Origin: Perkinsus olseni
Lineage: Eukaryota; Perkinsozoa; Perkinsida; Perkinsidae
NCBI GenBank assembly: GCA_013115135.1
Contig: JABANP010000083.1
Span: 1-64,000, forward strand
Reading direction: 5' to 3'
Length of the DNA stretch: 64,000 nucleotides
Below are positions 31,601 through 63,753 of the stretch, piece by piece (position 1 is the stretch's first letter; each line of letters begins with the position of its first letter). The notes under the pieces were generated by a model. That model was not told the DNA's origin and did not search any database. It saw nothing but the letters and a program-made list of their open reading frames with translations. Position numbers and translations under genes: made by a program.

Positions 31601-34600
31601 GTCGAGGCCGGGATATAAGGTTGCAGGTACGGTTCGCGATTCTGCGATAGAGGTGTCAGAATAGAGAAGTACCACAAGGCGACTGTTGAGCTTTTCTCTC
31701 CGTATTCTCAGCCGGACGGCATGGTCGAGAGGTGCGTCCGGTTCGCCGTCCGATCACCGGAAAGGCTGCACTGTACTGTCTCCTCACAAATGCGTCCTCC
31801 CTCGTGCGGCCAGTTAGCTCGGATGCGTGCATGCCAGGGTGACCCGGTTCAAGGACCTGAACCTGCGCCTGCCGGTGATGATCACAGAGTATTTCAAACA
31901 ACGCAAAGATATGCTGCAAGCTCGCATCAAGTAGAAAAACACGACGCAGTACGAACGGGAGGGAGATTCTGTCGAGGTATCTCGCTGATGCTGCGGTCCG
32001 AGAGGAGTTCAACCACGGACGCCCGGCTGCTCTGAAGGTAGGCCGTCAGCCAACTCGGCCAGGGGTGGTCCATGATGCTCTGGTAGTCCCTGGTTGATAT
32101 CGACCAGAGATGGCGTTGCATGGGGTACTATCATGAGACACGACCGGACGGGCTATATCGTACTGTCGACAAGATCGGGGAGAAGATCAAGGTCAGTGAT
32201 GCAGCCGTGCGTGCGGACAACTATCCTTCTTTCATTGGCAGGAGTCCTTTGTTGATCGAGACGACTTACTGGAGTATCACTCCGTGAAGCTGGATCGCAA
32301 CCTGAGAGGCACTGAGGCTAGCCGAAGCCTTCCGAGCCTACCGATAGGTGCGGGTCGAGATGATGCGATGGAGAGGAGGACTGCTGTCCAAGAAAGTCTT
32401 TCTTGTAGATTCCCTCGGAGATATTCCGATGACGAAGATATCGCAGAAGTACCGCACTCCGGATTACTGGGTGGATGATCAGACATGCCGAATCACCGAA
32501 TTGTGCAGTACGGGCGCACCCGAATTTGAACCGAGGACCTGCTGATCTGCAGTCAGCCGCTCTACCACTGAGCTATACACCCGTTGTCTGTGAGTGAAGT
32601 TTCTTAATGCTCTCTCTTATTAGGCAAAATCGTCTTCTACCTTCCTAAGAAGTCCATTCGTATCACTTATCATCGCCCAGAAGGACGACTAATGGGACAA
32701 CAGCTCACCTTCCACAAGACCCCGGATGGTTTGTCTCTGACGTGAGTCTGGCTTGCCAAGTCGCCACCTTTGGTGGGCCCCCCACCGTGGGGGCGATCTG
32801 CCTCACATCAGACTGGACAAGTTGAGCCGTCTCGGGCTGGGAGAGGATATTCAACTACCGACGCCGAAACAACTTCTGCAACTACTTCAACTCGAGAAGA
32901 CTAGCAAGCACAATTTCGTCGAAAGCATGAACAGAAGTAGGCCTCGTGTGCTGTCGGAAGTGCGGCTGTGCTGTTGTCCCGTGGAAAGACAAAAGAGCCT
33001 TCCCTCTATTGAATTGCAGACCATACCATGTATCATGTGGGAGTCCTGAGATAATCATGGCCAGCAATTTCAAAAGAATCGCCGATTTATAATTATCGAG
33101 AGAAATCCGATCCTGATCTATCTCGTGTACCATCACGGCATCGCCTGATTTATCGTACCACAAATCGAAGTATTCGTGGCCCAGTGCCATCGCATTAGTA
33201 CACAGCTGGTGGTAACTGTATTAGAGTGCACTCGAATGTCCGCCGCAGTTACCACAGAGCTGGCTCTACGCCGCAAGGAAGAGAACAATGTGAAGAACGT
33301 CCGACTAGTCGCACAGCAGGAGAGCGCACCGGTGGCCCAGAACGGTACAGCAGTTTCTGCCCCTCTGCCCTCCAGCGCCTTCCGCTCAGCCATGGGCGTC
33401 AGCGGAGGCCCAGTCATTCCAGACTTCGCTGCTCCGCCCGTCGATGTCGGGAAAGGTGGTGGGAGCGGCTTGAGCACTGCGAAGCGAAACCTGGTGGGTT
33501 TGCCGAACTCTCGACTTGTCTCGGAACTCACCTTGCTTCCTTCTTGCTCTTACATTCGTCTCTCTCGTCTTGCTCTCAGCGACTCTGGGTGGCCTGTCCC
33601 GATGTTCTTCTTGTTTCCTGACGTTTCTGATCCCTCTCAAGGCGGAGGCGGACCGCTGGTAAAGTCCTGTGGTTCAGGTCCTAGTGAAGGATGTCTACGA
33701 CTACGCCAGGGATCAGTCCATGGAGGCTCTGCCGGGCCATGATGGGTCAGATGAACGTGAAGAAGAAGAGGGAACGGGGAAGGGCGAGAAGAAGGTGAGA
33801 TGACTCTATGCTGCAGTGTAAAGTAGCAGCTGCGTGGGGCTACACAGCAGATCGCGTATGACCTCACACAGTTCGGGTGTTCAGCTCCTGTAAACTGCGG
33901 TATGCAAGGCGGATGGTGGCACTCGGGTGCTTCCGTCTCGATTGCCCTCGCGTCCGAAATCCTAGCTACGAGCTTTTTTCATCGCTGGCTCTTCAACGCC
34001 TTGGCGGCAGTTCTTCGAGGGAACGTTTTCACGTTCGCGTGGTATCCATCGTGTGGCTTGAGAAGTTCCAGTTGAATCGGACGAGGTGATGCGGGCTCAC
34101 TAAGTGCCCTCAGGTCGATATCCTGGCACCCTATTTGGCCGAGTTCCCAGGGAAGCAGCTGGACGCTCTCCAGGCAGAATTCGTTGCGAAGAAGTAGATA
34201 AATGCATTCAGAGTAACGTGGCCTCTCTGATCTTCCCTGTAGATGTAAAAGTGACTTCCGTAAGAGACTGCTAGATCGCGCGGCTATCATACAGAAGAGG
34301 CTCGAGGACGAACAGGTGAGGGGCCGCTGGGCTTGAAGAATAGTCAAGACGAGCAGCTACCACAGCGCGCCACGTTGAACGCGGCTAATCCTTCTCCTAG
34401 CCTTCAGCGGGGTCGGCACTCGGGGTAAAACGCCTCGTCATCAATAGTGAAGCTGCTCTTCGTTATTCTAGAACAACTCGATTTGAGCGTATTCGGCGCT
34501 GCTTGTGGGCTCGAAGGACCGGAGCGACGGTCGCGTTGTCGGCCGCGGAACTTTCTTGTGTTCAGGAGGCTTTGAAGAAGCGCCGAGCTCAAATTCAGCG

Positions 34601-35154
34601 GCGCAGTGGCCCTGACGTTCAGCAAGGGAGAACGGAGTCTGACTTTGAGAAGTATCAGACTCTCGCGATGTTCCGGTAGGCAACGCAGCCAGGCGAATGA
34701 TAGGAAAATAACTCGGAAAGATGTGTGGTTAACTCGGAGTGGAGTTGCCAACCATCGCACGCGGACGAATATCCAGGTTCCAGAGTGAATCTGACGGCTC
34801 TGAGTGGAATCCTGGACATGGGCCGTGTCACACGGCGTTGATCAGCCACAATGATCATTATTGTTACTACTGCGTTTTGAACTCGCATCAGGCGTATTAA
34901 AGATATTATTCAATCGCGTGTGGTGTGGTCTTTCGATCTATTGCAAGAAGGCCTCTATGGGCCGGACCCACCCAGTCGTACTTGTCAGGATCCAAATTCT
35001 GGAGCAAAGGTTGGCTCGGCACGAGGTCCAGGCTATCAAGAAGTTCACTGAGTTGGAGGAAACCCTGCTGGCGGACCCGAGACTGCAGGCGATGTGGGAG
35101 AATTACTCCTCAGACGAGGAGGGCGAGGATGATCCGTCTTGCGGAGAAGCATGA
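28631..35154 (+). CDS. Dynein regulatory complex subunit 7 (DRC7/CCDC135) homologue
   Basis: DRC7 is part of the nexin-dynein regulatory complex of motile axonemes; the parasite's flagellated zoospores would use it. Family blocks appear in order on successive exons: GIPPFLSSYASNSKREERV (28774-28853); YGEDRKLYLCPLNEIG and FLPTTIRPT (28900-29017); ELYDASLCGKFLANY (about 29095-29181); GDAFDIS then LCSILVGAGYDAYCV, the transglutaminase-like core (about 29305-29410); GRRAHCWVMVRKGA and FIEPTTG (30654-30745); SVDTVWNHKNVWVN (30926-30970); VELFSPYSQPDGMV (31685-31730); YYHETRPDGLYRTV (32127-32165); SFVDRDDLLEYHS (32241-32280); FYLPKKSIRITYHRP (32635-32680); VDILAPYLAEFPG (34112-34150); FRKRLLDRAAIIQKRLEDEQ (about 34250-34315); and the last exon 34989-35154 (IQILEQRLARHE), joined in phase to the exon ending AMFR at 34675. 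Introns are short. The start is uncertain. Confidence 0.92.
30186..30257 (-). tRNA. tRNA-Asp(GTC), inside a DRC7 intron
   Basis: 5' TCCGCGG pairs with 3' CCGCGGA, the anticodon is GTC (in CTGTCAC), and the T-stem CCGGG/CCCGG encloses TTCAATT. The discriminator is A rather than the usual G. It lies antisense in the DRC7 intron ending about 30317. Confidence 0.9.
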
Positions 35155-35499
35155 GAGCACTGTCCATGATCCTGAGATTGTTGTGGCGACCAGTGGTGCG
35201 CCCACAAGGTTGTCCTTGTTGCAGTTGTGAATGAACTGGGCGAGGTTTACCGGGCAAACTGACTGTCTTCGGTGGAACACCACACCACTCCCAAGCGTTT
35301 TCAAATGGCGCCCAGATCAAACTTAGTGAGCTGGTCTAGAAATGGCGAGAGTGGATTCCAGCGGGTAGGCAAGGGGTTTCAGAAAGGGCGCAGCAGTAAT
35401 CGTGTGGTCTGTTTCGGAGGAGCTCACTGGTGAGAACGAGAAAATGAAAAAAAGCGATCATGAATATGGAAGGACGATAACAGTTATCGGATTACCCCG
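31708..35499 (+). repeat. Segmental duplication, copy A
   Basis: It matches 43993-47768 (copy B) almost base for base and includes the 3' half of DRC7, tRNA-Cys and the flank 3' of DRC7. Copies C (about 53360-54070) and D (about 57798-58130) match only its 3' end. Confidence 0.92.
32511..32582 (-). tRNA. tRNA-Cys(GCA), copy 1, inside a DRC7 intron
   Basis: GGGTGTA pairs with TGCGCCC, anticodon GCA, T-loop TTCAAAT. The discriminator position (32511) gives G, whereas copy 2 at 44796 gives the canonical U73 that cysteinyl-tRNA synthetase reads. Charging of this copy may therefore be poor. Confidence 0.88.
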
Positions 35500-36468
35500 T
35501 GACGCCGAAACAACTGCTGCAACTACTTCAAGTTGAACTCGAGAAGACTAGCAAGCACAACTTCGTAGAGACGAACAGAAGTATTGTGCCCAACTCACGA
35601 TTTCGTATTGTGGCTGTATAGATGCTCAACTCAGGTTGAAAGAGAGTCGAAGCATCCACTCTCTATTGCAATGTAATGTGAGGCCGTCCTTGAAGAATCA
35701 TAGCCAACAGTTTCACTGGAACCGCACATCTAATAGATGACGTCTATGATTACCGAGAGACATCCGGTCTCGAACTATCTCGTGAATCATCACGCCATCG
35801 CTTGATTAATCATACCATAAATCGGAGTATTCATAGCCCAGTGCCATCGCATGAGTTCGTAGCTGGTGAAAACTGTATTGGGGTGCACTTGAATGTCCGC
35901 GGCAGTCACTACAGAGCCGCAAGAAAGGGGGCAACGTGAAGAACGTCCGACTAGTCGCACAGCAGGAAGCCGCACGAGTGGCTCAGAACGGTACAACGGT
36001 TTCTTCCTCTCTGCTATCCAGCTCCTTCCGCTCAGCCATGGGCGTCACCGGAGTCTCAGTCATTCCAGACTTCGCCGCTGGCTATCCCACTAAGAATGGA
36101 AGTCTTCCATTGGAAGAGAAAGCTGTGCGATTGTCGCGGGACTCAACGAGAACGATCTTTGCGGGAGTGTATATACGAGAGCGATCTTCGCGGGACACAA
36201 CAAGCAATGCGGATCTGATGACTACGATTACCTTCTCAAAAGGACCGCTGAGTTAAACGGGGGAAAGGGTGGTAGGTCGGGACTCCCGACTTGAGAGTCT
36301 GACTTTCAGAGTCACGAGTCGTGACTCACGACGCTAGCTGTGACTCTCCATGCATATCCTGATTTTACACCGGCGGCCCGACGACGTCCTTCTCGACTGT
36401 TCTATGCAAAGCCAGGCAATTCCACCCTCATAGTGAACACTGGACAACAGTGCTGCCACAGCGCCTGT
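35500..36468. other. Partial re-duplication of DRC7 intron and exon sequence, decayed
   Basis: 35505-35600 repeats the segment around 32855-32960 and 35690-36080 repeats 33050-33420 with many changes. There is no intact frame. It carries three palindromic 22-bp scars (36096-36117, 36276-36297 with two mismatches, 36311-36332). Confidence 0.6.
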
Positions 36469-36988: not shown

Positions 36989-37018
36989 CATACCATTGGT
37001 ATCATACTATGATACCAA
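36989..37018. other. Palindromic scar, extended form (W = CATACCAA on plus strand)
   Basis: First seven bases of W, a 16-bp inverted part (8 bp longer than usual), then the last seven. It is 22 bp longer than the inferred empty site and breaks the integrase frame. Confidence 0.75.
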
Positions 37019-37170: not shown

Positions 37171-37192
37171 ATCTCAATTTGAGATTCTCAAA
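37171..37192. other. Palindromic 14-bp insertion scar (W = ATCTCAAA)
   Basis: Exact form: ATCTCAA, TTTGAGAT, TCTCAAA. It inserts 14 bp into integrase coding sequence and shifts the frame; taking it out makes the flanking frames continuous. Confidence 0.85.
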
Positions 37193-38066: not shown

Positions 38067-39435
38067 CTAATCAGAATACAAAAACTCAGTCGAGTTTTCA
38101 TCATCAGAAGTCTGCATGATGACATCAGCGTCAACCTCTCCTTCCCCCCTCTCGAGCTCGGCATCAATAACCGCGCGAAGAGGATCCTCCTCAGAGGCGG
38201 AAACCGTCAACTTAACCGAACCTTGAGGATAGACATTCACCCGAGCCAGCTTGTCAACAACAGACAATACTTCTCGAGGAACCCAGATAATACCAGAGAC
38301 ATTCCTCTCAAAAGACAAAGCCATGCGAAGATCACCTTCAGTCTGGATAAACTCCTCATAGTTATGCCACCAATGTGTAGAGTTCCGATTATCAGTCACG
38401 ATAAAGGCCGGGGCATACATCATAGGCAGGTATCTGTAAGCGGCCAACAACTGACTCTTACGCTCCTTATAAGTACTACTACGCTTTACATCAGCGGTCG
38501 TAAGGAGACCTCCGTCAAGACATGCCGGTAACACAGCGTAGGACCGATCCGCCTGGTACGGCAGATGAAGCTTCTCAACCACAGCACGAGAAAGTGAAGC
38601 CGCAACCTCAGGCCAACCATGCAATTCAACTTCAGGCACAGAAGCTTGATGCAAAGTCGGATACTCAATCACGTGAAGAAGCATGGACCCCCAACTGTCA
38701 CCATTACAGTCAGTCACGATCAACGATGCAACAACACGGAAGGAAGAGTCAGATCCCACAACATGGAGAGCCACGAGACCGCTGAAGTAGGCAGAAGCAA
38801 TTTCTTCCACTAGCTCAACCGCGTCATCCGACAAAGGATCAACTTTATGAAGACGATGAAGAGACACTTGTAAAGTAGCAGGCAACCATCGACGCAGCCA
38901 CTGAAACTTTCCACACCATTGCCGTATCATCGTCTGACGCTGGTCACGATCTCGTGTCTTCCGAAACGCCAGGAGAGCCTCCTCCACCGCAGCAGTCGTC
39001 AAGCTCTTCCTCTCTGCCGGAATCACACGACTGCCTCGGACCTGTAATCCGCAGAAGTTAACAGCGTCTCCTTGCTCACACTTATCCCTACGGATCGCAA
39101 GTCCACGAGCTTGAGCCATCTCAATAATGACATCCATCGCCGCCTGCGCATCCTCCTTAGTAGGAGAACCACCGAGCAGGTCATCTTGATAACTCACGAT
39201 ATAAGCAGTGATACCACGGTCAGCAAGAACTTCACGCACCTCCGCCATGAAAGTCGTCATCACCTTATGGAAATACCCCGGCGAGAAGCGCCACCCTTGA
39301 GGAATACGCGTCGCCATCCATAACCTCGTACGACCGTCAACTCCCACAGACCTTGTACAGAAGAGCTTACGAAGCGGTTTACTGATATAAACCGACCCAA
39401 AAGCATCACTGATATCTAACTTGAAATACACACCT
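38067..39435 (-). CDS. Reverse transcriptase (YQDD) and RNase H region
   Basis: Continuation of pol beyond the MITE. GVYFKLDISDAFGSV (motif A Asp) lies at about 39385-39430, RIPQGWRFSPGYFHKVM is motif B, and IVSYQDDLLGG is the catalytic YXDD box at about 39175-39205. A thumb/connection and an RNase H-like region follow. The frame ends at TAG (38067-38069), but the same frame continues open into integrase, so a single stop separates them. It could be read through or be a point mutation. Confidence 0.88.
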
Positions 39436-39443
39436 CGGCAAGT

Positions 39444-39764
39444 CAGGGTGGCCCAGCGGGGAAGAATGCTATTCTTTCTTCCCGGGAATTCCAGAAATTC
39501 CCGGGAAGAAAGAATGCTCAATATTCCCTGGAAGAATGATCGCGATTCTTCCCCAGTATTTAGGTGCTTTATTTCAATGGTTCATCGTAGGAAAGCAGCC
39601 AATACAGTTAGGTATGCGCGCCGAAGGCGGGCGGAAAAAACTTTGGGGGCCCTGCTTTAATGGGGAAGAATGCATTCTTTCTTCCCACCTATATTCCTGG
39701 GAATTCCCGGGAATTCCCGGGAATGGAAAGAATGATTCATTCTTCCCACTTATGGGCCACCGTG
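39444..39764. mobile_element. hAT-type MITE inside the retrotransposon pol gene
   Basis: 321 bp with inverted ends CAGGGTGGCCCA (left) and CACGGTGGCCCA (right, read inward). It is flanked by the 8-bp direct repeat CGGCAAGT (39436-39443 and 39765-39772). An 8-bp duplication and CAGGG ends are hallmarks of the hAT superfamily. There is no coding capacity. An internal inverted repeat with ~20-bp arms (CTTCCCGGGAATT core) lies at about 39471-39515. Confidence 0.9.
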
Positions 39765-42046
39765 CGGCAAGTCAACGGCCACCTCATCAACATCGATAGA
39801 GCCGACTCCTGAGACTGGCATATCGCAGAAAGCGTCGCCTTTCCAACATCCTCATCAGCCAACCACACGTAGTCACCAGGACCCTGTTCGTAGAGCTTGA
39901 GACTATTGACCTTCCGCAAATCAAGCGTCACCCGGAAGTGCTTACGGATCTGCTCGTCAGACAAGGTACTAGGATCCACCGCACCAATATTAGTTTTGGC
40001 CACGAGCACAACTTCCGAGATGAACAACTCACTGCTCGGAGCGACTTCCTCGAACCGTCCAAGCCGAGCAGCAATCGATATCCATCTATCGATAATAGCA
40101 GCCTTGGACAGACTCCGTCGCCGAGGCGGCTCTATATGTGGAAAGATGGACGCCGTCTCCAACGGTGGACACCTGATCTCATACCGACCATCATCAGTAC
40201 GTTCCACAAAAAGAGCATTCTCAGACTCGAACAGACGATCACAGACATCATCAACCCTATCGGCCTGCTTATCACCAGAACGTACCGCCTCGTTGAAACA
40301 GTTGTCTAGTTCCATCCTCAAAGTAGGATAACGACACATGGCCGACATACCAATGATGATCTCAAGATCCAGGCAAGGCAGAACCTTGAAACTCAACGGA
40401 CCATAACCATCGACGGACAGGAGAATCTCACCATCGGCGCCGCTAGACGAACTATTACCGAAGCGCACACCACTACAGGGCTTGAGATCGCCCACAATGA
40501 CCCCAGCAGACTTCAAGGCAGTAAATAACGCCTTAGCCATATAACCTTCACCGCGCGCAACCGTATCCAGCAATCCCTTCACACGGGCGCCGCCTTCACC
40601 GCTCTCGCGAACAACTAGGGAGACCAAAGGATCATGAATCTTGACCCGTCGGATCAAATCCACATCCTCATCACGGCCATCGTCATCAACCAATACCCTA
40701 ACAAGTTCGAAATTGCCAGACTGCTGACTAAGAGCCGGACCATCCGCAGTAGGGGCAGGACGATCCACAGTAGGAGCAGGCTTGGGTTGATCAGTAGCCA
40801 CCACTTTGGGTTGTGCCTTACGAAACGGACAGTCCCGCTTCATATGAGGTCCACCACAATCCCAACATTTCACCGGTCTCCTAGGTGGAGGAGCTCGAGC
40901 ATACGGTGCCTGATACTGCACAGGTGGAGCCGTAGAACCCGAAGTCACCTGACTGTCAGACGAACCATTGACTCGATCGGAATCATGCTCCTCAGAACCC
41001 GTCGAAGGATTAGCATCAGCCTCGGAAACGACATTAACCGATGAGGCAGCGGTGGCCTTGGAGTCAGCCACAGCACTCGAACCGGAAATACTGTCACTGG
41101 AATTGGCCGATTCCCACAGCGTGAGCATAGTGCAAAGCTGGTTAACATCACGAACATGAGAGTAGGTGGTACGGACAGCCTTCACATAGTTCGGGCGAAG
41201 ACCCTTCACAAACCGGTCTAGCAGCTCGTCGCTAGAAACATACACGCCCACACATTTACCCTCAGTAAGAAGATCACGTAGACGACCAATATAATCCCCG
41301 ACCAATTCATTAGATCGCTGTTTACATAAGGCGAGCCGGTTACGAAACCGGACCGGATCATTAGTGACACCGAACGCAGACCGCAGGAAATGTTCAGCAG
41401 CTGTCAACAGCTGCTTGGTAGTACCATGCAGCAATAAACCCTCAGTCTCCAAGTAATCCGTGAGCTCACCACGTACCGAAGGACTGATACACCGCAATAA
41501 ATACTTCCAACAATTGTTGGCAGATAACCCATACAACTTCGATAGCTGTATCCATTCCCTAAGGAAATGGGAAATAGATCGTGCCTCACTGCGACCCATA
41601 AAGCATTGGCCACCAGCCGGCAACGGAAGAGTACTCACCATGTTAACGGCGCGAACGTCATTAACATCACCATGATTAGCACCATCACCATATAGATCCG
41701 CAACACTGGGAGCATGTACCTCATGATTATCTGAGTCAGGCAGCACAGTATTATAACGTGCATCAGCGCTGTTCATCGTCTGATTACTCACGGAGCTTGC
41801 ACCAGCAGAAGCACCGGAAATACACGACCAAAGGTAACGTAAACGCAACTGCTCGTTGAGTTCCTTCGCTGCCTTCTCAATAAGACCGTCGACTTCAGAA
41901 GATCTCAGGAAACCAACGAACTGAGGATCCACACCGACTGCTCGACCAAACTCAGCACGAGCCTCCTCGGCGTCCAGGATCCTGCATCGGGTACCAAGGT
42001 TGTTGGAGTTACCATCCTTATTATCCTCTGAACTCTGCGTGGTCAT
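39765..42046 (-). CDS. Retrotransposon gag, protease and start of reverse transcriptase
   Basis: One open frame beginning in the LTR. Gag occupies roughly residues 1-380 and includes an FLREWIQLSKLYG block. A CCHC zinc knuckle (CWDCGGPHMKRDC, CX2CX3HX4C spacing) is at about residues 391-403. A retropepsin-like domain follows, with LLDTVARG in place of the usual DTGA and a partner block EIIIGMSAM. RT begins with FRVTLDLRKVNS. The frame is interrupted at 39764 by the MITE, in RT upstream of the YQDD motif. The altered protease motif may reduce activity. Confidence 0.88.
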
Positions 42047-44867: not shown

Positions 44868-45516
44868 GATGTCTGCGAGTGAAGTTTCTTAATGCCCTCT
44901 CTCGTTAGGCAAAATCGTGTTCTACCTTCCTAAGAAGTCCATTCGTATCATTTATCATCGCCCAGAAGGACGACTAATGGGACAACAGCTCACCTTCCAC
45001 AAGACCCCGGATGGTTTGTCTCTGACGTGAGTCTGGCGTGCCGAGTCGCCACCTTTGGTGGGGCCCCATTGGCGGATCTGCCTCACATCAGACTGGACAA
45101 GTTGAGCCGTCTCGGGCTGGGAGAGGACATCCAACTACCGACGCCGAAACAACTGCTGCAACTACTTCAACTCGAGAAGACTAGCAAGCACAACTTCGTA
45201 GAGACGAACAGAAGTATTGTGCCTAACTCACGATTTCGTATTGTGGCTGTATAGATGCATGAACAGAAGTAGGCCTCGTTACCTGTCGTACTGTGGCTGT
45301 GCTGTTGTCCCGTGCAAAGACAAACGAGTCTTCCCTCTATTGAATTGCAGACCATGCGATGTATCATGTGGGTGTCCTGAAATAATCATGACCAGCAATT
45401 TCAAGGGAATCGCTGATTTATAATTATCGAGAGAAATCCGATCCTGATCTATCTCGTGTACCATCACGGAATAGCCTGATTTATCATACCACAAATCGAA
45501 GTATTCGTGGCCCAGT

Positions 45517-45538
45517 GCCATCGGCGATGGCCCATCGC
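45517..45538. other. Palindromic 14-bp insertion scar (W = GCCATCGC)
   Basis: Exact form: GCCATCG, GCGATGGC, CCATCGC. Copy A (33186-33193) and the older copy near 35847 have the plain 8-bp word. Confidence 0.9.
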
Positions 45539-47768
45539 ATTAGTACACAGCTGGTGGTAACTGCATTAGAGTGCACTTGAATGTCCGCCGCAGTTACTAC
45601 AGAGCTGGCTCTACGCCGCAAGGAAGAGAACAATGTGAAAAACGTCCGACTAGTCGCACAGCAGGAGAGCGCACCAGTGGCCCAGAACGGTACAGCAGTT
45701 TCTGCCCCTCTGCCCTCCAGCGCCTTCCCCTCAGCAATGGGCGTCAGCGGAGGCCCAATCATTCCAGACTTCGCTGCTCCGCCGGTTGATGTTGGGAAAG
45801 GACCTTTCCGAAAAGTAGTGGGAGCGGCTTGAGCACTGCGAAACGAAACCTGGTGGGTTCTCCGAACTCTCGCCTTGTCTCGGAACTCACCTTGCTTCCT
45901 TATTGCTCTCATACTCGTTCTCTCAGCGACTCGCGGGTAGCCCATCTCGACGCCCTTGTTGTTTCCTGACGTTTCTGTCGACTCTCAAGGCGGAGACCGA
46001 CCGCTGGGAGAGCTATGTGATTCAGGTCCTAGTGAAAGATGTCTACGACTACGCCAGGGATCAGTCCATGGTGGTCCTGCGGGGCCATGATGGATCAGAT
46101 GAACGTGAAGAAGAAGAGGGAACGGGGAAGGGCGAGAAGAAGGTGGGATAACTCTATACTACCGTTTAAAGTAGCAGCTGCGTGGGGCTATTCAGCAGAG
46201 TGCGCATACCCTCACGCAGTTTGAGTGTTCAGCTCCTGTGCACTGTGGTATGCAAGGCGGAGGAAGGCACTCGGGTTCACGCCTTGGCGAAAGTTCCTCG
46301 AGGGGACTTTTTGCGTTCACGTGTTATCCATCGTGTAGCTTGAGAAGTTCCGATTGAATCGGCGGAGGTTATGCGGGCTCACTAAGTGCCCTTAGGTCGA
46401 TATCCTGGCACCCTATTTGGCCGAGTTCCCTGGGAAGCAGCTGGACGCGCTGCAGGCAGAATTCGTTGCGAAGAAGTAGATAGATACGCTTAGAGCAACA
46501 TGGCTCTTCTGATCTTCCCTGTAGATGTAAAAGTGACTTCCGTAAGAGACTGCTAGATCGCGCGGCTATCATACAGAGGAGGCTCGAGGACGAACAGGTG
46601 AGGGGCCGCTGGGCTTGAAGAACAGCCAGGACGAGCAGCTACCACAACGCGCCACGTTGAACGCGGCTAATCCTTCTCCTAGCCTTCAGCGGGGTCGGCA
46701 CTCGGGGTAAAACGCCTCGTCATCAATAGTGAAGCTGCTCTTCGTTATCCTAGAACAACTCGATTTGAGCGTATTCGATGCTGCTTGCGGGTTCAAGGGA
46801 CCGGAGCGACGGTCGCGTTGTCGGTCGCGGAACTTTTTTGATTTCAGGAGGCTCTGAAGAAGCGCCGAGCTCAAATTCAGCGGCGCAGTGGCCCTGACGT
46901 TCAGCAAGGGAGAACGGAGTCTGACTTCGAGAAGTATCAGACTCTCGCGATGTTCCGGTAGGCAACGCAGCCGGGCGAATGATAGAAAAAGAATTCGGGA
47001 AGATGTGTGATTAACTAGGAAGTGGAGTTGCCAACCATCGCAGGCGGAAGGATATCCAGGTTCCAGAGTGAATCTGGAGGCACCGAGCGAAATCCTTGAC
47101 ACGGCGTTGCTCGATCGCAATGAACATTATTGTTACTACTGCGTTTTGAACTCGCATCAGGCGTATTAAAGATATTATTCAATCGCGTGTGGTGTGGTCT
47201 TTCGATCTATTGCAAGAAGGCCTCTATGGGCCGGACCCACTTAGTCGTACTTGTCAGGATCCAAATTCTGGAGCAAAGGTTGGCTCGGCACGAGGTCCAG
47301 GCTATCAAGAAGTTCACTGAGTTGGAGGAAACTCTGCTGGCGGACCCGAGACTGCAGGCGATGTGGGAGAAGGACTCTTCAGACGAGGAGGGCGAGGATG
47401 ATCCGTCTTGCGGAGAAGCATGAGAGCACTGTCCATGATCCTGAGATCGTTGTCGCGACCAATTGTGCGACCTGAAGGTTGTTCTTGTTGCAGCTGTAAA
47501 TGAACTGGGCGAGGATCGCCGGGCAAACTGACTGTCTTCGGTGGAACACCACACCACTCCCAAGCGTTTTCAAATGGTGCGCAGATCAAACTTGATGAGC
47601 TGGTCTAGAAATGGCGAGAAAGTATTCCAGCGGGTAGGCAAGGGGTTTCAGAAAGGGCGCAGCAGTAATCGTGTGGTCTGTTTCGGAGGAGCTCACTGGT
47701 GAGAACGAGAAAATGAAAAAAAGCGATAATGAATATGGAAGGACGATAACAGTTATCGGATTACCCCG

Positions 47769-48940: not shown

Positions 48941-49682
48941 TAGAAAATGTGGGAACGAGGCTGTGCAATTAATCAGGATCCCCGATTCAGGAAGCCTTCT
49001 AATCCTCAACAATTCGGAGAAGGGCGGAAACTGGGCCTCTCCATGAGAACCTCAGTGCCTTGAAGGTTGCCTGGAAGTGGCCGAAGATGCAGTTCCCAAA
49101 CTTGCGAGAATTCGATTGAGGAGTCGGTACACGACGGAACGTCTTCGCGTGTACGCAAAGACAATAATGGAGCGGAGACCGTCCGCCAGCAGCGGAGACA
49201 GTAGTGAGTCACCGCTGTCTCCAATAAAGACCCTCCCGGAGGTTCTCGGTCGAATGCGGCGACCCATACTCGACATGTCGATGACGGTATCCTCAGACGG
49301 GCCTCTCACCGTGAGAGTCTCACGCATAATCGAATTCCCGTCTTACGATTCTGGTGGTAGACGCCCAGTCGTCCTCAAGACGATGGCGCCTACTGTCATG
49401 TATCTAGTTTGCACACTAGAGGTGCACTTGCGTACACGCGAAGACGTTGAGTCGGGTACCGACTCCTCAATTGAATTCTCGAAGTTTGGGAACTGCATCT
49501 TAGGCCACTCCCAGGCAACCTTCAGGGCACTGAGGTTCTCATGGAGAGGCCCAGTTTCCGCCCTTCTCCGAATTGTTGAGGAGTAGAAGGTTTCCTGAAT
49601 CAGGGATCCTGATTAATTGCACAGCCTCGTTCCCACATTTTCTAATGGCGCTACCAACTACCAGACCCCAATCCAGCACCTT

Positions 49683-50687: not shown

Positions 50688-53359
50688 GAAAAGTGTGTCG
50701 TGAGTATTGCCTCAGACCTCCGTCTTGCTTCAAGCAGATAGGACAGTTTTTTGCGTAGTCTGACAGCGGCCTCAAGCCGCTCATTTCGGCTCTATCGGTA
50801 GAAAGAGTACACGTTACCAAAAGTTTTGTTCAGAGGGTGTATTCCTCCAACTCTCCATTTTTCACATCCCCGATCGATGAAAGCGTAGCGTTGTAAGTGT
50901 CAATAACGGTATGTCGACCAGCACTGAAGCGCCATCTCGCCGCGTCTGATCAATACACGACTGATCATCATGCTGATCATGACATGATCCCCGTCTGATT
51001 CACAGAGTCGATCAAACTGATTGGCACGGGTTGAGCTATAGCACGCACGGAGTATCGCTGGCTCATGTCCAATGAATCAGGTGCTGTGGCAGCACTGCTG
51101 TCCAGTGTCCAGTCGCGCGGAGTTGCCTGGCTTCGTGGAGAAAGGCCAAGAAGAGGATGCCTCCTCGCCGCCGACGTCTAGATTTTATTAATAAAATCTA
51201 TTTATCCTATTATTTAGTTTGAAATTGATAATTTTACGGTGAAATTATAAATGTTAGGATATACACGGTAGCGCTGTGACTCTCAAGTCGGGAATCCCAG
51301 CCCACCAGATTGAGCGCAACTCTTCATGATGGGAATCCCGTGTTGAACTCGACGGTGGATACCATTCTCTTCGGCCACCCCTTCAATTTGAAGGCTTCAA
51401 AGGGCGTTGGAGCACCATACTCGGGATCATAACTTTTAGAAGCTTTGGGGTGTATCAGAGTGGATCCGTCGCTGATTCATGGAAGATCCCTCGTTAACTC
51501 ATTTTAAATCAATCAATCTGTCGAGTAAACTGATTAACAGGATGATATTCCTCGAGATTTTGACGTTGCATGGCAAGTGACTTGCGGGCCGCAAGTTGCG
51601 GCAAGTCTATATTCTCAGAACCAGGCCTGCCTCTATAAGTCATTTAAGTTTTCTGCATACTAGAAAATGAGAGGTCTCCTAAGTTTACGATGTTGGGTTG
51701 GAGTGATACTGACTCGCAACTGCGGGCGGAGCTTTGAGAAAGGCGGACGAAGCGCGGCACTCCAAGCGCCGCACGGTGCGCCAAAAGTTAAAGGGTCCTA
51801 AGATGTAAAGGTCATATGTAAGAACATCTCCTGAGTACATTCAGAGGAGTTTTAGATCGATACTCGAAGTCAGTGGCTCGGACTTGCTCGACCACGATTA
51901 TCATAAGGCTACAAGAGAAGAACGATCAGAGCTAGTATTGTAGGAGCACCGTCGACCAATCCGTCCTCATAAATACTCCTCTGAATAAGGGCGTCTGCCA
52001 AGCTGCCGTGTTTTAGTGGTCAGTTTCATCCTTCCTGTAGTTGACTCAGCGTTGATGCCCCAAGCTAACATATGCTATATGCGTGCCCACGAAACGTGGC
52101 CCACGCTGACAAAGGCTTCCGCCTGGTTTTCGAGTCAGCTGATATCATCGGAAGTGCTATCGGTATTCATCCGAGGACTTCCGAATCCAGGGGTATCTGC
52201 CCCAATTGCAGAATAGCTCTTGGTAATACATTTCGCGGGGAAGCCCCGAGTCAGTCACTGTCCCCAAGAATACAACTTGCCTGTTGGGAATTGAAATTTG
52301 GTGGACGTCGGTCACGCTTTCCGTGACATCGTAACCCAGTCTAGCCACCGAACCTGCGGTCGCAACTGGAGATCTTTCCGATCGAGAGTCCGATCTGATC
52401 GAAGCAGCTGGGATAGCTGAGTTGACGACGTCAACTTGACGTCAAGAATCACTGTAGCTTCGCTCGTAGCTGACATTGTACCAGTGATAGTATTAGATTC
52501 CTCTGCAACCATATTTGAGAGCATGGGAGTTCTCGGTTCCTCGAGACTTAGAACTGGTCTCTCTGGACGTCGTAGTCTTTACGCTACTGCGGCCAGTGGA
52601 GCCATGGCTCTCTAATCAGCCTTGGTCGTGGCTCCCTAATCCGGGGCCTCAATCGGTTTGCACGGAGACTCCGTGGCAAAATCAGCCCGCGATCAATCCT
52701 CTACTCCGAGTTTCGGTGCCGGGTCGTCCCATGGCCGCAGTAGTCTCTCGCCTCATCTGGTGTGATCCATCCGGCTGCATTGTCTTTTTCGCCATTGGGA
52801 CTGCCACGTGGTGCGAGCGAAGGAGTCGCCGCAATTGTGTAGAATCTACACCGTAGACAGTCTCTTCTCCCCTACTCCGGGGCCAAGTCCTTGGAACACA
52901 CCATCTCTACATTGAAGCGCACTCTACGAATAGCTGGCTTACCTGAGCCATGCCACGGCTGCCGTGGCAAGGTAGCCTGTGCTTATTCTTAAGCTATAAC
53001 GTAGCGTAATGAGGATCACTACTCATACGATGTTGACGAGGATAATCCTCGTAGGATTATCCTCAGAGGATACTTGAGTTTTCTCACTCAGCTGCCTGTG
53101 TCAGTGAAAGCGCATCGCTCCGCGACGCTGACGAGACAGGCTCTGTCATCTCAGATGATAGATGACTTATCTGCCGCGGAATTAGACTAGGATGCAGTAT
53201 CATCGGCCGCCGTTCCCTTTGTCTGACCAGGGCGTGACAATTGGAATTGAATCATTCAATCCATGCGATTAGAACCCGAATTCAGTCTTCATTTCTCCAG
53301 AATCATGATGATACCTGATGATACTATCATCAGACCGATAACCGTGCATTGAATCCCTT
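50688..53359. other. Decayed intergenic DNA, no firm gene
   Basis: 50765-50781 is the conserved stem-loop 3' of copy 3 (reverse orientation). 50766-51130 continues as the family's 3' flank. 51180-51260 is AT-rich. A plus-strand frame at 52515-52856 shows no recognisable domain. Palindromic scars lie at 52421-52442 (exact, W = GTTGACGT) and 53037-53058. Confidence 0.5.
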
Positions 53360-54070: not shown

Positions 54071-54742
54071 CTGACTGTCACCTCAGGTGACTCACCTGTA
54101 AAATTCTACATTTCCATCGAGGTCGACTCAGTCGACTCGATTCGTTGGGTCAGCTTAATCGGCGATGACTCCCGGCGTGCAATGGGACAGTAGCTTTGTG
54201 TTAGAGCTAGTTGGTGGTTCGGTTGAGGTGAGCTTGAGGTGAGTGGAGCATGTTGCTAGCGAGTAAAGTTATGTCTTATCTTCTAAAAAACCTCCCGCGC
54301 ACCCTGGCGATGTGGCGCGGTTGCCTCTCTGTTGTTGAGAGACGGCCCGTCACATTGGCCTAGGACATGGCGCTCCTTGCGCAGTCTTCCGCCCCACGCC
54401 GGGGTGGAAGGAAGCCGGGAAAGACTAAACTTAACGAGCTGCTCTCATCAAAATGATGTGGATGGATTCCAGGGGGTAGGGCCCACCCGGTGGGCAAGGA
54501 GTTTGGAGAGGGCGCAACAGTGAGCGTGAGGTCTGCTGCAGACCGTCTGAACCCGGGCAGAATGCTATGATGGCCTCATAATAGCATTATGATAATGACG
54601 CCTCTGGAACTCGGGGCCTTGACAAAGTCCACCTTCGTCAACCTTGAACTCTCAGAGTCAGAAGAGTATCTTTCAAAATGTCGATCGCCCTCTGCTCGGC
54701 GCACGTCACAGCAAGTATCTTTACCCTGGATTGGTTCTCGGC

Positions 54743-54764
54743 ATACCAACTTGGTATTACCAAG
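54743..54764. other. Palindromic 14-bp insertion scar (W = ATACCAAG)
   Basis: Exact form: ATACCAA, CTTGGTAT, TACCAAG. The paralogous site at about 58740-58752 is 14 bp shorter. Confidence 0.88.
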
Positions 54765-55063: not shown

Positions 55064-55085
55064 CCCAAGCCGCTTGGGCCAAGCG
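55064..55085. other. Palindromic 14-bp insertion scar (W = CCCAAGCG)
   Basis: Exact form: CCCAAGC, CGCTTGGG, CCAAGCG. The paralogous site near 59151-59166 is 14 bp shorter. Confidence 0.88.
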
Positions 55086-55452
55086 GTTCACTTGAAGCGA
55101 ACACTGGGCAGCAGTACTGCGAGTCGCAGTCTGCGACAGCACCTAGCTCGGTAGACAGGAGCCATCGAGTTCGTGTATGTGGCACTGCGTACGCTATAGT
55201 AATGTATGCAGTGCTCCTAGAATACTGAACCTCCACATTGAACGATTGACGTATCTCGATGGATCCTTGATCGGCGTGACCTCGAGACTAACTCCGTGTG
55301 GCCAATTTTTGGCGAATTTTGACCTTGTAAAGGTCACTGGCGTTGAACGCAACATGAATGCGGGCGTGAAAGAGAAGAGTTGGAGGAACTCTATATCCCT
55401 CTGAGAAAAGCTTCTGATAATATGTGAGATTTTGTTTCGAAAAGCCCAAATG

Positions 55453-57797: not shown

Positions 57798-58200
57798 CAT
57801 CCAGTCATACTCGTCAGGATCCAAATTTTGGAGCAGAGTTCGCTTGCCATGATTCATGGCGCCCGGACTTCATGGCCCATGAAGTCCAGGCTATCAAGAC
57901 GTCGATGAGGTCACTTAGACCCTGCTGGCGGACCTGAGGCTGCAGGCGATGTGGGAGAAGGACTCTCCAGACGAGGAGGGAGAGGATGATCCGTAATGCG
58001 GAAAAGCATGAGAGCAGTGTCCATGATCCCGACTCGGGATTCCCGAGTTTGTTGTGGCGGCCAATGGTGCGCCCACAAGGTTGTTCTTGTTGCAGTTGTG
58101 AATGAACTTGGGTCCATGGGCCCAAGTCGGCAATTCGTTGGGCCAGCTTACTCGGCGATGATACTTGGCGGCGGCGGCCGGCGCGCAATGGGACAGTAGC
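57798..58200 (+). pseudogene. DRC7 last-exon fragment, copy D
   Basis: Recognisable by GATCCAAATT.TGGAGCA, CCTGCTGGCGGACC and the acidic DEEGEDDP codons, but several palindromic insertions destroy the frame (57846-57887, 58026-58047, 58106-58127). Confidence 0.75.
58026..58047. other. Palindromic 14-bp insertion scar (W = ATCCCGAG)
   Basis: Exact form: ATCCCGA, CTCGGGAT, TCCCGAG. DRC7 copies A, B and C all lack it and are 14 bp shorter here. Confidence 0.9.
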
Positions 58201-58279: not shown

Positions 58280-59270
58280 GTTTTATCTTCTAAATGACCT
58301 CCCGCTCACTCTGGCGATGTGGTGCGGCTGCCTCTCTGTCTTTGGGAGGAGCCCTCGTCACATTGGCCTAGGACATGACGCCCCTTGCGCAGTCCTCCGG
58401 CCCACGCCGCAACGCCGGGGTGAAAGGGAGCCGAGAAAGATCAAACTTGATGAGCTGGTCTGGAAATGGCGTGGATGGATTCCTGCGGGTAGGCAAGGAG
58501 TTTCAGAGAGGGCGAAGCACCGAGCGTGAGGGCTTCTGCAGACCGTCCGCACCCGGGCAGATCGCTATGAAGGCCTCATGATGAGGCCTCTGGAACTCAG
58601 GGCCTTGACACATTCAACCTTTCGCTGCAGTTTTTTCGACTGAAACTCTCAGAGCCGGAGGATTATCTTTCAAGAAGTCCATCGCTCTCGTTCAGCGTCC
58701 GTCTCGGCGAGCTTGTTATCTCTATCGTAGATTGGTTCTCGGCGTACCAAGGTGCCGGCGATAAAAGGCTTTTAAAGCGCTCAACTGCGTTGAGTCAACG
58801 GATATCTCACACCTAAACCGAATTCAGCGGGAAGCAACCCCCGAACGTTTTTCCGATTGTTGACCATGTCTTTCACCCGATAAATTTTGGATTGGCCTTT
58901 GGGGTCGTTGCAATCATTCTTCTACGATGATCGTGCTACGAGCTCCATCCAGAGGCGCTTGCCTGTGAACTGGGTGAGCCGGAGTGCAATTTCTGACGGC
59001 CAGGATGGTCCTGATAGGACCTCCAACGGAGATCGTCAGACTGCATTCCCGGAAGTTTCCCGGAACCTCAGAAACTGTAAAACTGGAAACTGCCTCCGCC
59101 GACGGCAAAAGGATATACCCTCCTCCGCCGCGGCCCCTCTCCATTGAGCCAAGCAATCCAAAAGGGTTCACTTCAAGTGAACACCGAACGAGAGCGCTGC
59201 GACAGCACCTAGTTCAGTGGACAGGAGTCAACGAGTTCGCGTGTGTGGCACTGTGTACGCTATAGTTCTG
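58280..59270. repeat. Unassigned duplicated segment, copy 2
   Basis: Partner of 54290-55200. No gene recognised. Confidence 0.75.
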
Positions 59271-59523: not shown

Positions 59524-59540
59524 AGCGGCCCGAGGCTGCT
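59524..59540 (-). promoter_or_regulatory. Conserved 3' stem-loop, secreted-family copy 5
   Basis: AGCGGC-CCGAG-GCTGCT: the loop has changed but the stem still pairs (one G-T). Confidence 0.5.
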
Positions 59541-59667
59541 GTCAGGCAAAAAAGGGCTCCATTTATGGAGCTTCCTCGTCATGAGGTTCGAGTCACGTTA
59601 TTGGAAAACGCGATAAGTTAGAGGCTCTAACATCAAGAACTGTGTACCGTGTACTGAACCTATTTTC

Positions 59668-60379
59668 CTAAACCCGGTCATGCAGCACCCCATTAACGAT
59701 AGTGCGAGTGAAGTTGAAGATCTTACCGGCTCTGTCACCGGCCGCCGTGAAAGTTATATGATACTTCCAACCTCCCTCCAGCTTCTCCATGCGTAGTATG
59801 TTCCAGACGTAGAGTGGCAAATCTGAGCCCTTGTTCTGCTCAGGAGTGGCGAGAAGCTCCATTTGCTTGCTGCTTGCGAAACCTTTGATTCCATACCACG
59901 GGAACCGCGCCTTTTTTCCCTCAGGATAGTGAGCGTCAACCGTCGACGCCACGGAAACAGGGACTACGGAAGCCTATATCATCATAATCGAACCATAGGT
60001 GGGCCCAACCACTAGTCTCCACACTGACCTTTGTCTCGCCGCTTGTATGGTTCTCCATCAAGTTGACCTGGATCCTCATCTCACCCCATTTCCCAGCCAT
60101 GTTAGTTCTGATAACAATGCCGCCGGTCTCTTGATAAACTCCATCCGATCTCTGCCCTTTCTGGCTGAAGATGCAGGAGGGGTGCAGCAGTTCGATGGTG
60201 TCCCCTTCCGCCGGACCAGGGCCCGCATAGCAACCCTTGGGATAATCAGCGACCGTTCTGAAAGGTTCACCAGAACTCGCAATCGACAATGGAGAGATGC
60301 AGGCCAACACGAAGACGCCGCAGTGGACCCAGATGGCGAGAGACGTCCTGGTGTAGAGCCTGGTAGTCGGAAGCGCCAT
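59668..60379 (-). pseudogene. Secreted protein family, copy 5 (internal deletion)
   Basis: Starts at 60377-60379 (MALPTTRLYT) with a signal peptide and both cysteines. After the TSGWAH block a 53-bp deletion relative to copy 4, with TTCC at both breakpoints, shifts the frame near 59972; the upstream frame stops at 59936. The remainder, in the other frame, runs to LHDRV and the stop at 59668-59670. Confidence 0.83.
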
Positions 60380-61499
60380 AAGAAAATATAAGAACGAGGC
60401 TGAGCAATCTAGTGGGAAATCTTCTCGAGGGCCGCCTGGGATCTACTTTGCGGCTATAGTGCACAATATTTATCAAGCTATGAGGGCCGGCGCAATTAAC
60501 GGAGCGCGAAGAGGAGACTCGTTACACTAGACTGTCGTCACAAGTGAGCGGCTGGCACTCTCAGACCCTTGTGATTCGAGGATAATATCAGCGGACTCCT
60601 CCGCAAAACGACTCGCAGGAGGCATAGGGATGATGGATAATAAGAATAATCTCAATGAATGGGGAATGGACTGTCGTTCATGAACCGCAGCGTAAAGCAC
60701 TCATGCGCATAGCGTTCCTCGTCGGATTGTCTCTCGCGAGGGCAAACCGTGTCGCGGGCACGTGTCATGCGACTAGACGGCAAGAGGTAATTTGACACGG
60801 CTCACAAGATAGGATGATGCCGCTGTCTTGAGGACGTCTGGGCGTCTACATCTGAGATCAAAATCCGGAAATTCAATTACGCGTGATGCGTGTAGCTCCG
60901 GAAACTCAGGTCTGTCTGAGTACACGCCATCAATAAATTGAGCATGCGTCACTATACTCGTCAGAGGAAGTCAGGGATGGTCTGTTGTTCACACGCGGAC
61001 TGTCGACGTACAACTCGATCTAGTTACGCAACACGAAGTTGGTGTCGCTAACCTTGGGTGAGCTTGGAGGCTATAACGGCTCGAACGGCACCCAATCTGT
61101 GAAATCCAGAGTCTACCAATTCCGGAATAAACCCAAGCTGAGTGCACGCAGGTACATAGCTGCAACAGTACGGGTTCTGTTTTGCTGCAGCTAAGTATGT
61201 ACCTGCGTGCTCTGTATTAGAGAAGCGGGCGATGGACCCGGGAGTGCCCTCCACTGAAGGGCTTACACATATCTCCATTCTAAGGTGGGCCACCTTGCAA
61301 GGGACTACCACGGAGCACGAACGGACAAGGGCGAGTAAGCAACTGTGATGCGTACAGACGACGTGACGGCAACGGTAGCAGTATTGTTGTTCATTATGCA
61401 ATTATTGTTGGTGACTTAGTTGAGCTCTACTAAATCGGCCTCTCGTGAAATCAAATTCTTCTGGGTCTCTACTAGTTTGGTCTGAGCTTTATTAAATGT
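60380..61499. other. Decayed family 5' flank and a long hairpin
   Basis: 60830-61000 resembles the 5' flanks of other family copies. 61139-61213 is an imperfect hairpin with arms of about 28 bp (GCACGCAGGTACATA pairs with TATGTACCTGCGTGC). No gene. Confidence 0.5.
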
Positions 61500-61829
61500 T
61501 CTGGGATTTGGGTAAGTAGGTCTGCGAATAGTGTAGAAGACCCCGACGCGGTTATCCCGAACTTCGGGACCCGAAGGTGAGCTGTCCACAGTCTGTAGTC
61601 CAGTCGTACTTTATTCATCGTCCAGACAGGCTCTGCTTAGCAGAGATGGGCATTCCTCCTCTCCTGAGCTCTCACGCTAGTAACTCCAACTCGAAGATGT
61701 TGCATCACTCTCTCCTCTTGTTTGGAGTCTCCAAGCGACTGATGCGGTGGGTGCTGCTGCACACGAAATACAATTTTGATAGCTTTCCTTAGTTCATCGA
61801 AGTTTGCGCAAACGTATGGGGTGGATCGC

Positions 61830-61851
61830 AAGCTTGAAGCTTGAAGCTTCA
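61830..61851. other. Palindromic 14-bp insertion scar (W = CAAGCTTC)
   Basis: Exact form: CAAGCTT, GAAGCTTG, AAGCTTC. DRC7 at about 28938 has the empty site, 14 bp shorter. The core AAGCTT is its own reverse complement, so the scar looks like a triplication. Confidence 0.85.
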
Positions 61852-63127
61852 CTTGTGTCCTCTCAACGAGATTGGTACCAAATTCGTGTCCCCAAACTCC
61901 TGCCAGTTGAATTGGATCGGATTCGGCGATGCTGATTCTGTCGCACGCATACCCCGTGCTCTATGATGCTTCAGAATCTGAAGTTCAGATGTATATGATG
62001 ATGCATTATATATACAGGGTGTTCCCATTCGAATCGAATTTCAGTGATTCGCATATCGAATGATTCGATATGCGAATCACTAAAATTAGTCTAATTCAGC
62101 ACATACTACGTGTTTGAGCTGAAACTTGAGTATGATATGCACTAATATATTTATTATTAAGTTTTTTGATATCAGCTAACCGATCGACCGTTTCACTCAC
62201 CTGAAGACGCGAAGGTAGCCGTGCCAATTCGTTATACTTCGTTATAATTCGTTTCGCCACACACCGTATGTGTGTCACACATGGTGTGAGATGATTTATA
62301 TATGCTTCATATGATGCTTCATTCATGTACAGCCTACGAGTCTCGCAAGAACTTCGCAGAGTACGTCCTTCGGAAGCTTGCCTAGGGTGCTTGTTCGAGT
62401 TTCTACTGCTGAGCTTATATGAGAAATACGGGAGATTGCGAGAGAACAGAGGAGAGATTATACACCGCAGGTGCGGATTCGGTTAAATCTCTTCCTCACT
62501 CTGGGTCCATGGTTCCTGTGGAGCTGCTCGTATTCGTATTAGTAACTGGCCCTGAGCTTCGAATTTCGGCACATTCAGGACCCACACACGTTTCTCAACT
62601 TGACTACGGCTCTTTTCGGGTGCGCAGACCTCCTGCTCTCGGGACCCGAGGGCAACGGGCCGTTGCTGATGAGAAGAAGGACGACAGTCCGACAACTCCA
62701 CCAGGTGACTCACTGCAGCCACAATGTGGATTTCACACTGAGCTGTGTTATTGGATAGTGCTCATGCTTCACTGACCATTCCCGTGCAGCCGTCCCTGGA
62801 ATTTCCAGGGACGGCTGCACGGGAAAGCCAGGCTGGAAAGCCTCTCGGAAGTCTCGGAGGCGGGTAACCTGAAGGGAGACGGCGGAGCTCAGTCGATATG
62901 GCTGAGAAGACTCTTGGTAAGCCAGGTCGGGGTCATGTTGGTAATGAAGCTGCGGAGAGTCAAAAGATTCCCACGACCATCCCTCTGCCGCCTACCGCTA
63001 AACTTTGCCTCGTTGGGAATACTTCCCTGAGTTGATGGCCGTATCTCAGGTGAGGAGTTCTCCCTGATGAAGAAGCCAGTAATGGATAGTGAGCACTTGA
63101 AAGAGGAACAAAAGCGTGGAAGGTATA

Positions 63128-63199
63128 TTCCGAGGCCGGGTATTGAACTCGAGTCTCCTGCGTGACAGGCAGGAATACTCGCCAATATACTACCGCGGA
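63128..63199 (-). pseudogene. tRNA-Asp(GTC) pseudogene
   Basis: Copy of 30186-30257 with the anticodon arm kept, but the T-stem no longer pairs (TCGAG against CCCGG) and the acceptor stem has a mismatch. Confidence 0.8.
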
Positions 63200-63731
63200 A
63201 CTGATAATTTTTTCCTTCTCCGAACCTGCTCTGATCTTGATGTCTAATGTTGTAGGCCTTGCTCTAGAGAAGGCAGTCTTCGAAGCAGAAAGAAGTGACT
63301 CGGATATTGCTCTGACCGGTGACGTAAATCACAATCCATCTCCATGATGTCTCGAAAGTTTCGAGTCGAAACCCATTAACAGTAAGAACATAAGAATTTC
63401 TTATGTTTGGAGCAGCTGAAGCTCAGCTGCTGAGCTCGTCCAATTCATCTATGCCACAACCCCGGCCCGGGGTAAACACAAAACCTGAAAGAACTGCCAG
63501 CTCCCAGTGGGAAGGACTGCGCAGAATTCAGCCACGACTTGAAGGCGTCGCCTTCGAAATTTATCGGCTTGGTGGCAGCAACTGGTGGCTATAGTATAGC
63601 CGCTATACGGAGTTCACTTCTTTCCAGGAAGACGAGCCCGTTGTTGGGTGATGGTCCGCAGAGGGGCGAGGGACGTGGTGGCTGATATGTACATCGGACC
63701 CACTACAGGGATGATCTCCTACACGGAAACC

Positions 63732-63753
63732 GAACCTACTAGGTTCAACCTAG
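63732..63753. other. Palindromic 14-bp insertion scar (W = GAACCTAG)
   Basis: Exact form: GAACCTA, CTAGGTTC, AACCTAG. The DRC7 copy at about 30760 has the empty site, 14 bp shorter. Confidence 0.88.

Follow-up and report, generated by a model that had tools for sequence, protein, structure and literature searches.

Transposons of the hAT superfamily have an 8-bp target duplication and leave hairpin-capped flanks when they excise (PMC4763223), and the footprints of such hairpins have a reported hallmark, palindromes whose central base is the complement of the one adjoining the element (PMC5873905). Here we describe 22-bp palindromic scars in Perkinsus olseni, found in positions 1 to 64,000 of contig JABANP010000083.1 (assembly GCA_013115135.1, forward strand; this 64-kb stretch is referred to as the window) and elsewhere in the genome. 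Each stands in place of an 8-bp word, W, and reads W(1-7) + rc(W) + W(2-8), where rc(W) is the reverse complement of W. Perkinsus species are alveolate parasites of molluscs. The scars are likely to be footprints of excised hAT-superfamily DNA transposons, W having been duplicated at insertion and the hairpin-capped ends being predicted to have opened and annealed via W; mobile elements are thus the probable cause, but are themselves gone from the scars.

Ac/Ds, studied in plants, Saccharomyces cerevisiae and Candida albicans, resembles the present case in being a hAT system with an 8-bp duplication and inverted repeats on the complement of the element-bordering base; its footprints were ascribed to hairpins that are opened and then joined, in many cases at microhomologies (PMC5873905). 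It differs in its mixed products: 128 events in Candida yielded 28 kinds, with P-nucleotide insertions no longer than 3 bases, and in budding yeast the palindrome arms reach 20 nt (PMC5873905). Here one full-length product dominates. TcBuster, a hAT element assayed in human cells, likewise gave small complementary insertions that were ascribed to hairpins, but its insertions and deletions were variable, up to 50 bp, and its target consensus is nnnTAnnn (PMC3499496) in place of the weak [G/C]TnnnnA[G/C] preference found here. Kat1, a domesticated hAT transposase of Kluyveromyces lactis, also makes hairpin-capped breaks on flanking DNA, although it acts at the mating-type locus (PMC4763223) and the scars described here are genome-wide as far as sampled. 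In excision of mPing, a Tourist-like miniature inverted-repeat transposable element (MITE), the duplicated target word again guides end joining, but repair is precise (PMC4561436), whereas joining via the inverted word here leaves 14 bp. The seamless excision of piggyBac is alike in its uniform repair outcome but restores the original TTAA, whereas the present scars keep a 14-bp palindromic addition. The uniformity of piggyBac repair stems from complementary overhangs.

Footprints of hAT elements are known and are mixed; the new part is one dominant class at such a scale. Among the open-licence papers listed in literature searches, no title or abstract opening describes uniform 22-bp hAT scars or palindromic scars in Perkinsus.

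Scar structure, word length and abundance

The scar pattern was scanned across the window at word lengths (k) of 4-13. There were 28 exact scars at k = 8, with exact counts elsewhere of 26 (k = 4), 3 (k = 5), 1 (k = 6) and 0 (k = 7 and each of k = 9-13). Allowing up to two mismatches, the counts were 72 at k = 8 (which includes some shadows of single scars), 12 at k = 7 and 1 at k = 9. An earlier sequence-only reading of this DNA had named 12 exact and 13 inexact sites: all 12 are exact, although the one placed at 61830 really begins at 61829, and each of the 13 has one or two mismatches. That list missed 16 of the 28 exact cases in the window, and its statement that all cases lie right of 32 kb was wrong, since nine of the 28 lie to the left (2848, 3113, 3729, 14795, 16500, 16956, 19566, 26336 and 27679) and further scars occur elsewhere in the genome.

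The genome assembly comprises 61.5 Mb in 968 contigs, and 264 kb was sampled, consisting of the window and 20 ten-kb stretches; 12 of the latter are contig starts picked by number and eight come from contigs with hAT matches, the sampling being not strictly random. Unless stated otherwise, counts below refer to these 264 kb. Exact matches numbered 93 at k = 8, 3 at k = 6 and none at k = 7, 9 or 10, compared with 1, 0, 0, 0 and 0 at k = 6, 7, 8, 9 and 10 in one first-order Markov shuffle. The target word is exactly 8 bp, as expected of a hAT excision footprint, and the excess of word length 8 over other lengths and over shuffled sequence, proposed in the sequence-only reading as a check, was found. 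The structure W1-7 + c8...c1 + W2-8, with c the complementary base, is exact in all 93 cases and contains the palindromes of a hAT footprint, each having at its centre the complement of a base that an element would formerly have adjoined. The scar is self-templated, in agreement with the earlier suggestion, made with no mechanism named, that a process acting on local sequence, and not an inserted mobile repeat, replaced W by 22 bp.

The inserted complement is 8 bases long in 93 cases, while lengths of 5, 6, 7, 9, 10 and 14 were seen in 1, 2, 2, 0, 1 and 1 cases respectively (seven for lengths 5-7 plus 9-16, five for lengths 5-7 alone). For inserted lengths of 1-4, the scan gave 83 cases at k = 8, 269 at k = 7 and 28 at k = 9, where shuffles gave 50, 188 and 11 respectively; there was no excess specific to k = 8 by comparison with the control lengths k = 7 and k = 9, in a scan that is blind to deletions. 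Within the same limit, a mixed product spectrum of the Ac/Ds type, with mostly short P-nucleotide insertions and deletions, was not observed.

Substitutions per scar were 0 in 93 cases, 1 in 74 and 2 in 67, with corresponding values of 0, 6 and 65 at k = 7 and 0, 1 and 7 at k = 9, and decayed scars perhaps roughly double the exact total. In the mismatch lists, most pairs at offset 7 represent one scar and its shadow; such pairs were removed before the motif, paralogue, flank-pair, substitution and clustering counts; repeated contexts were additionally left out of the first target-motif profile (171 scars).

In the 200 kb outside the window there were 65 exact scars, with at least one in 15 of the 20 stretches, and extrapolation from these 200 kb gives approximately 20,000 exact scars genome-wide. 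None of 167 scars with no more than one mismatch lay inside a stop-free frame of at least 300 codons (12.8 expected), and at lower length thresholds there were also fewer than expected (7 versus 25.4 for at least 200 codons; 24 versus 48.1 for at least 150 codons). This avoidance of long open frames is as expected if selection removes 14-bp insertions from genes. A hot spot of scars nested in scars was considered but not supported, as gaps below 40 bp (7 versus 6.1 expected) and below 100 bp (22 versus 16.9) showed no significant clustering.

Empty sites, inherited scars and resident hAT elements

Two allelic states of the scar sites were observed among paralogues. In a flank test on the 167 scars with no more than one mismatch, copies of both 80-bp flanks were sought elsewhere in the collected sequence. 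Paired-flank paralogues were obtained at 30 sites (66 pairs), with a spacing of 8 bp in 35 pairs (17 sites), 22 bp in 16 pairs (nine sites) and other values in 15. A no-insertion allele with a single W and 14 bp less, as a hAT footprint implies, was thus present at 17 of the 30 sites. Scars are also common to several copies, indicating that they are inherited. Seven of the 15 off-size pairs exceed 150 bp and join flanks of two different copies, five of these using the scar's own right flank; the other eight span 7-29 bp and, in those inspected (including L075), reflect slipped or diverged alignments. A 17-bp spacing at window position 45056 may be a decayed scar.

When paralogues were fetched and aligned for this purpose, the 14-bp difference and a single W were seen at scars 2848, 3729, 14795, 16500 and 45517. 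For 31 of 227 scars with no more than two mismatches, some paralogue matches the W-only form better than the scar (gap-free in 23 cases), in a sequence set that includes the purpose-fetched relatives. The sequence-only reading had listed 11 sites with 14-bp-shorter paralogues; nine were recovered (34815, 45517, 45795, 54474, 55064, 55116, 58026, 61829 and 63732), of which three carry between 1 and 6 additional gap positions, while those at 54743 and 58780 were not. Among unselected indels between repeats in an all-against-all BLAST comparison, five were of 14 bp, none of 13 bp and one each of 12 and 15 bp.

The scarred genome harbours hAT elements with 8-bp duplications, as seen in MITE copies, and also hAT transposase domains. 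A resident non-autonomous hAT MITE of 321 bp occupies window positions 39444..39764, with terminal repeats CAGGGTGGCCCA and CACGGTGGCCCA, and is flanked by the duplicated target word CGGCAAGT at 39436..39443 (left copy) and 39765..39772 (right copy). An RVT_1 reverse-transcriptase frame on the minus strand (38067-39521) overlaps this MITE at its upstream end. The family has at least 39 other copies in the genome, some partial (among the best 40 of 55 candidates), and 18 of 20 fetched relatives have perfect 8-bp duplications. When the flanks of these 18 were joined and searched, all 40 matches (the best 40 of 102 candidates) spanned the join without the element, at 92-100% identity, giving empty sites for at least 10 of the 18. 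The 12-bp terminal repeat of the MITE has 88 exact genome copies (control, 5), although among these 88 no convincing pair a few kb apart marked a longer element. Further small hAT-like elements with 8-bp duplications are present in L004, L023 and L125.

At least 21 hAT dimerisation-domain matches were found in the genome, with one uninterrupted transposase frame of 581 amino acids (L007:1402-3147). Its product has 95% identity over 74% of its length to a P. olseni protein and 69% over 73% to a P. chesapeaki protein; a sequence comparison with solved structures gave no homology at an E value of 0.1.

The W of 171 scars is mildly palindromic, the pattern [G/C]TnnnnA[G/C] having G or C at both outer positions (1 and 8), T at position 2 and A at position 7, and the flanks are nearly flat (leave-one-out z = 9.1). 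The Ac-type target consensus is nTnnnnAn, which fits this preference. Under the scar profile, 43 target words of resident hAT elements, some of them read at one end only, scored above random genome words (z = 2.6, p = 0.0045); scar words and resident hAT target words share a preference that is weak but significant.

Proposed excision and repair, and competing explanations

In the mechanism that we propose, insertion would yield W-element-W, an arrangement demonstrated for MITEs resident in this genome. The transposase would later excise the element by nicking both flanks at a distance of one base from it, following the reported hAT geometry; the left hairpin would then run through W1-W7 and the complement of W8 and back, and the right hairpin would be its mirror image. 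The one odd central base in each palindrome is predicted by such a one-base-offset nick. Opening of the hairpins a and b bases from their tips (a and b counted to 8) would produce tails of rc(W) and W with an overlap of a + b - 8. Any a + b of at least 9, as when both openings are some 5 or more bases deep, would permit annealing and then fill-in or flap trimming, leading to the single product W1-7 + rc(W) + W2-8. Convergence on one product is a matter of arithmetic, while the repair route itself is inferred. Openings nearer the tip would leave short mixed footprints like those of Ac/Ds; the lack of a word-length-8-specific excess of short footprints predicts hairpin opening at some distance from the tip, or end joining that relies mainly on annealing.

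It is a tentative and rather doubtful extension that this lineage has a dedicated, nearly deterministic repair of hAT excisions, in which hairpins open deep and annealing via the inverted target word is the sole means of joining. If true, tens of thousands of past excisions would be recorded in the genome in one readable format. In the reports cited above, footprints of hAT elements come from reporter assays with mixed products, whereas in the present genome the geometry of hAT cleavage is apparently readable from natural events, an extrapolated 20,000 in number, that each differ in W and in age. Sequence alone would then suffice to measure how often elements excise, which targets they choose, how strongly 14-bp frameshifts are selected against and by which pathway the breaks are repaired. 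A testable question is why one main product is found in this alveolate and many in yeast and Candida. Loss of non-homologous end joining was rejected as a simple cause of the uniformity, since the genome has one exon with a Ku domain (C523) and one gene resembling SNM1/DCLRE1A (C623), these being the two families tested.

Several observations weigh against hAT excision as the source of the scars. No site was found with empty, filled and scarred forms at one W. Scar alleles predicted at the 18 MITE sites had no match (best 40 of 61 candidates), nor had those predicted at another 38 terminal-repeat sites, a set with some duplicates (best 40 of 58 candidates). In the opposite direction, no element-filled paralogue was found at 20 window scars (best 40 of 89 candidates), where few filled paralogues are expected per site, or among the 66 flank pairs at the 30 scar sites. 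The nearest case is an exact scar in L081 (C71) that lies 3 bp off a MITE site in another copy of the same repeat family (L054, C281), a proximity that may be fortuitous or may mark a hot spot for targeting. Within the 264 kb, the elements seen to combine hAT-like ends with an exact 8-bp duplication number two (window 39444 and L023), against 93 exact scars, implying that the scar makers are mostly unseen, and the scar sequence does not name the element family that made it. The first 20 target words, which lie within the set of 43, were not significant under the scar profile (p = 0.17). Inserted lengths of 0-4 at k = 8 exceed shuffles, as do most at k = 7 and k = 9, and with a scan blind to deletions short footprints are possible. 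Finally, the presence of the Ku-domain exon and the SNM1-type nuclease gene leaves loss of end joining, as a simple cause of uniformity, unsupported.

The absence of filled alleles at scar sites (best 40 of 89 candidates; 66 flank pairs) and the small number of resident hAT elements relative to scars would also suit a transposase or nuclease that cuts bare 8-bp sites, the hairpin ends being rejoined without any element ever having been inserted; Kat1 is a precedent for domesticated hAT transposases that make hairpin breaks (PMC4763223). A bare site, however, offers one W, whereas the scar has two nearly full direct copies and one inverted copy, a composition that follows directly from prior target duplication, and the weak shared target preference indicates integration sites. 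We regard cutting of bare sites as improbable. A similarly small chance, put slightly lower still, is given to footprints of another superfamily with duplications of about 8 bp, such as Merlin or P. Merlin elements duplicate 8-9 bp, and both frames and remnants related to Merlin are reported from Perkinsus marinus (PMC8101967). An exon-by-exon genome search for the Merlin transposase domain PF12762 gave 0 matches at an E value of 0.001, P transposases not being searched for, and the odd central base fits the one-base-offset flank hairpin that is a feature of hAT. P elements make a long-stagger cut and leave element bases behind, whereas the scars contain no element bases.

Template switching in replication or repair at short inverted repeats, with palindromes arising by chance, could draw on one templated insertion nearby (C235, L085), but it would not keep the word length constant at 8 and each offset at a single base; with exact cases numbering 93 at word length 8 and zero at both 7 and 9, it is already contradicted by the word-length spectrum and very improbable. 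For an assembly artefact no supporting point was found. The scars are inherited in paralogues, with the 22-bp state at nine sites, and bear substitutions like old sequence (93, 74 and 67 with 0, 1 and 2, by comparison with 0, 6 and 65 at word length 7 and 0, 1 and 7 at 9), and an artefact is extremely improbable.

Scar positions and other features of the window

Scars are given here without strand. Eleven exact scars in the window have W-only paralogues: GCATGCAG at 2848..2869 (L069, L072 and L074), GTGCACCT at 3729..3750 (L061, L067 and L071), TCCTCAGG at 14795..14816 (L062, L063 and L068), ATCACCGA at 16500..16521 (L064 and L073), ATGGAAGA at 36096..36117 (L070), GCCATCGC at 45517..45538 (window 33126-33252, L065 and L066), GTTGACGT at 52421..52442 (L076), ACTGCGAC at 55116..55137 (window 59165-59263), ATCCCGAG at 58026..58047 (window 35111, 47380 and 53923, and L078), GGCTATAC at 63587..63608 (window 30591-30696) and GAACCTAG at 63732..63753 (window 30700-30800). 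Shorter paralogues with extra gaps were found for ATATCCAT at 3113..3134 (L069, small extra gaps), GTCACCTG at 54077..54098 (L078, 3 gap positions), CCCAAGCG at 55064..55085 (window 59105-59184, 1 gap position) and CAAGCTTC at 61829..61850 (window 28882-28975, 6 gap positions). Among scars with one mismatch, GACACGGC at 34815..34836 and GGAAAGGT at 45795..45816 have W-only paralogues (window 47038-47165 and 33392-33517 respectively), and GGGTGGGC at 54474..54495 has a shorter one (window 58430-58555, 4 gap positions).

The pattern scan also gave GATCATAC at 19566..19587, GCTGTCAG at 26336..26357, TACCTCTG at 27679..27700, GTCACGAC at 36311..36332, ATCTCAAA at 37171..37192, CTCTCACG at 49303..49324, CCTTCAAA at 51380..51401, CTTGCGGC at 51581..51602, ATACCAAG at 54743..54764, TCCCGAAG at 61555..61576, CTTCAGAT at 61969..61990 and CTCGAAAC at 63351..63372. 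The remaining exact scar, GCCTCAGC at 16956..16977, has a scar copy with one mismatch on C428 (L079). At this locus (C428:37760-37960) an insertion of about 54 bp, which forms a long inverted duplication, adjoins the inherited scar and is possibly another hairpin-type repair product.

At L085 (C235:21020-21140), 186 bp are replaced by 23 bp that partly copy nearby sequence; the 186-bp difference was rejected as a hAT element, being a templated deletion, and this templated repair is unlike the scars. A 266-bp repeat at window 14045-14310, perhaps Mutator-like, has many copies, some of them in tandem on C590. It was rejected as a hAT candidate, since comparison with an empty site on C235 points to a 7-bp duplication in the window and L090 has one of 10 bp. 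A further repeat of about 720 bp (window 3262-3980) is present in many copies and ends in inverted repeats of about 48 bp; its middle 197 bp are unmatched in most of the copies listed, though a stretch of similar length is present in them. A 3.3-kb insertion at window 17562-20874, absent from the C428 and C235 paralogues, carries one DDE_Tnp_4 and one Myb-like frame and is a PIF/Harbinger-type element. Dada transposons target transfer RNA (tRNA) genes in Perkinsus marinus (PMC3706591), and seven tRNA genes (Met, two Trp, two Asp and two Cys) lie between window positions 10484 and 63200.

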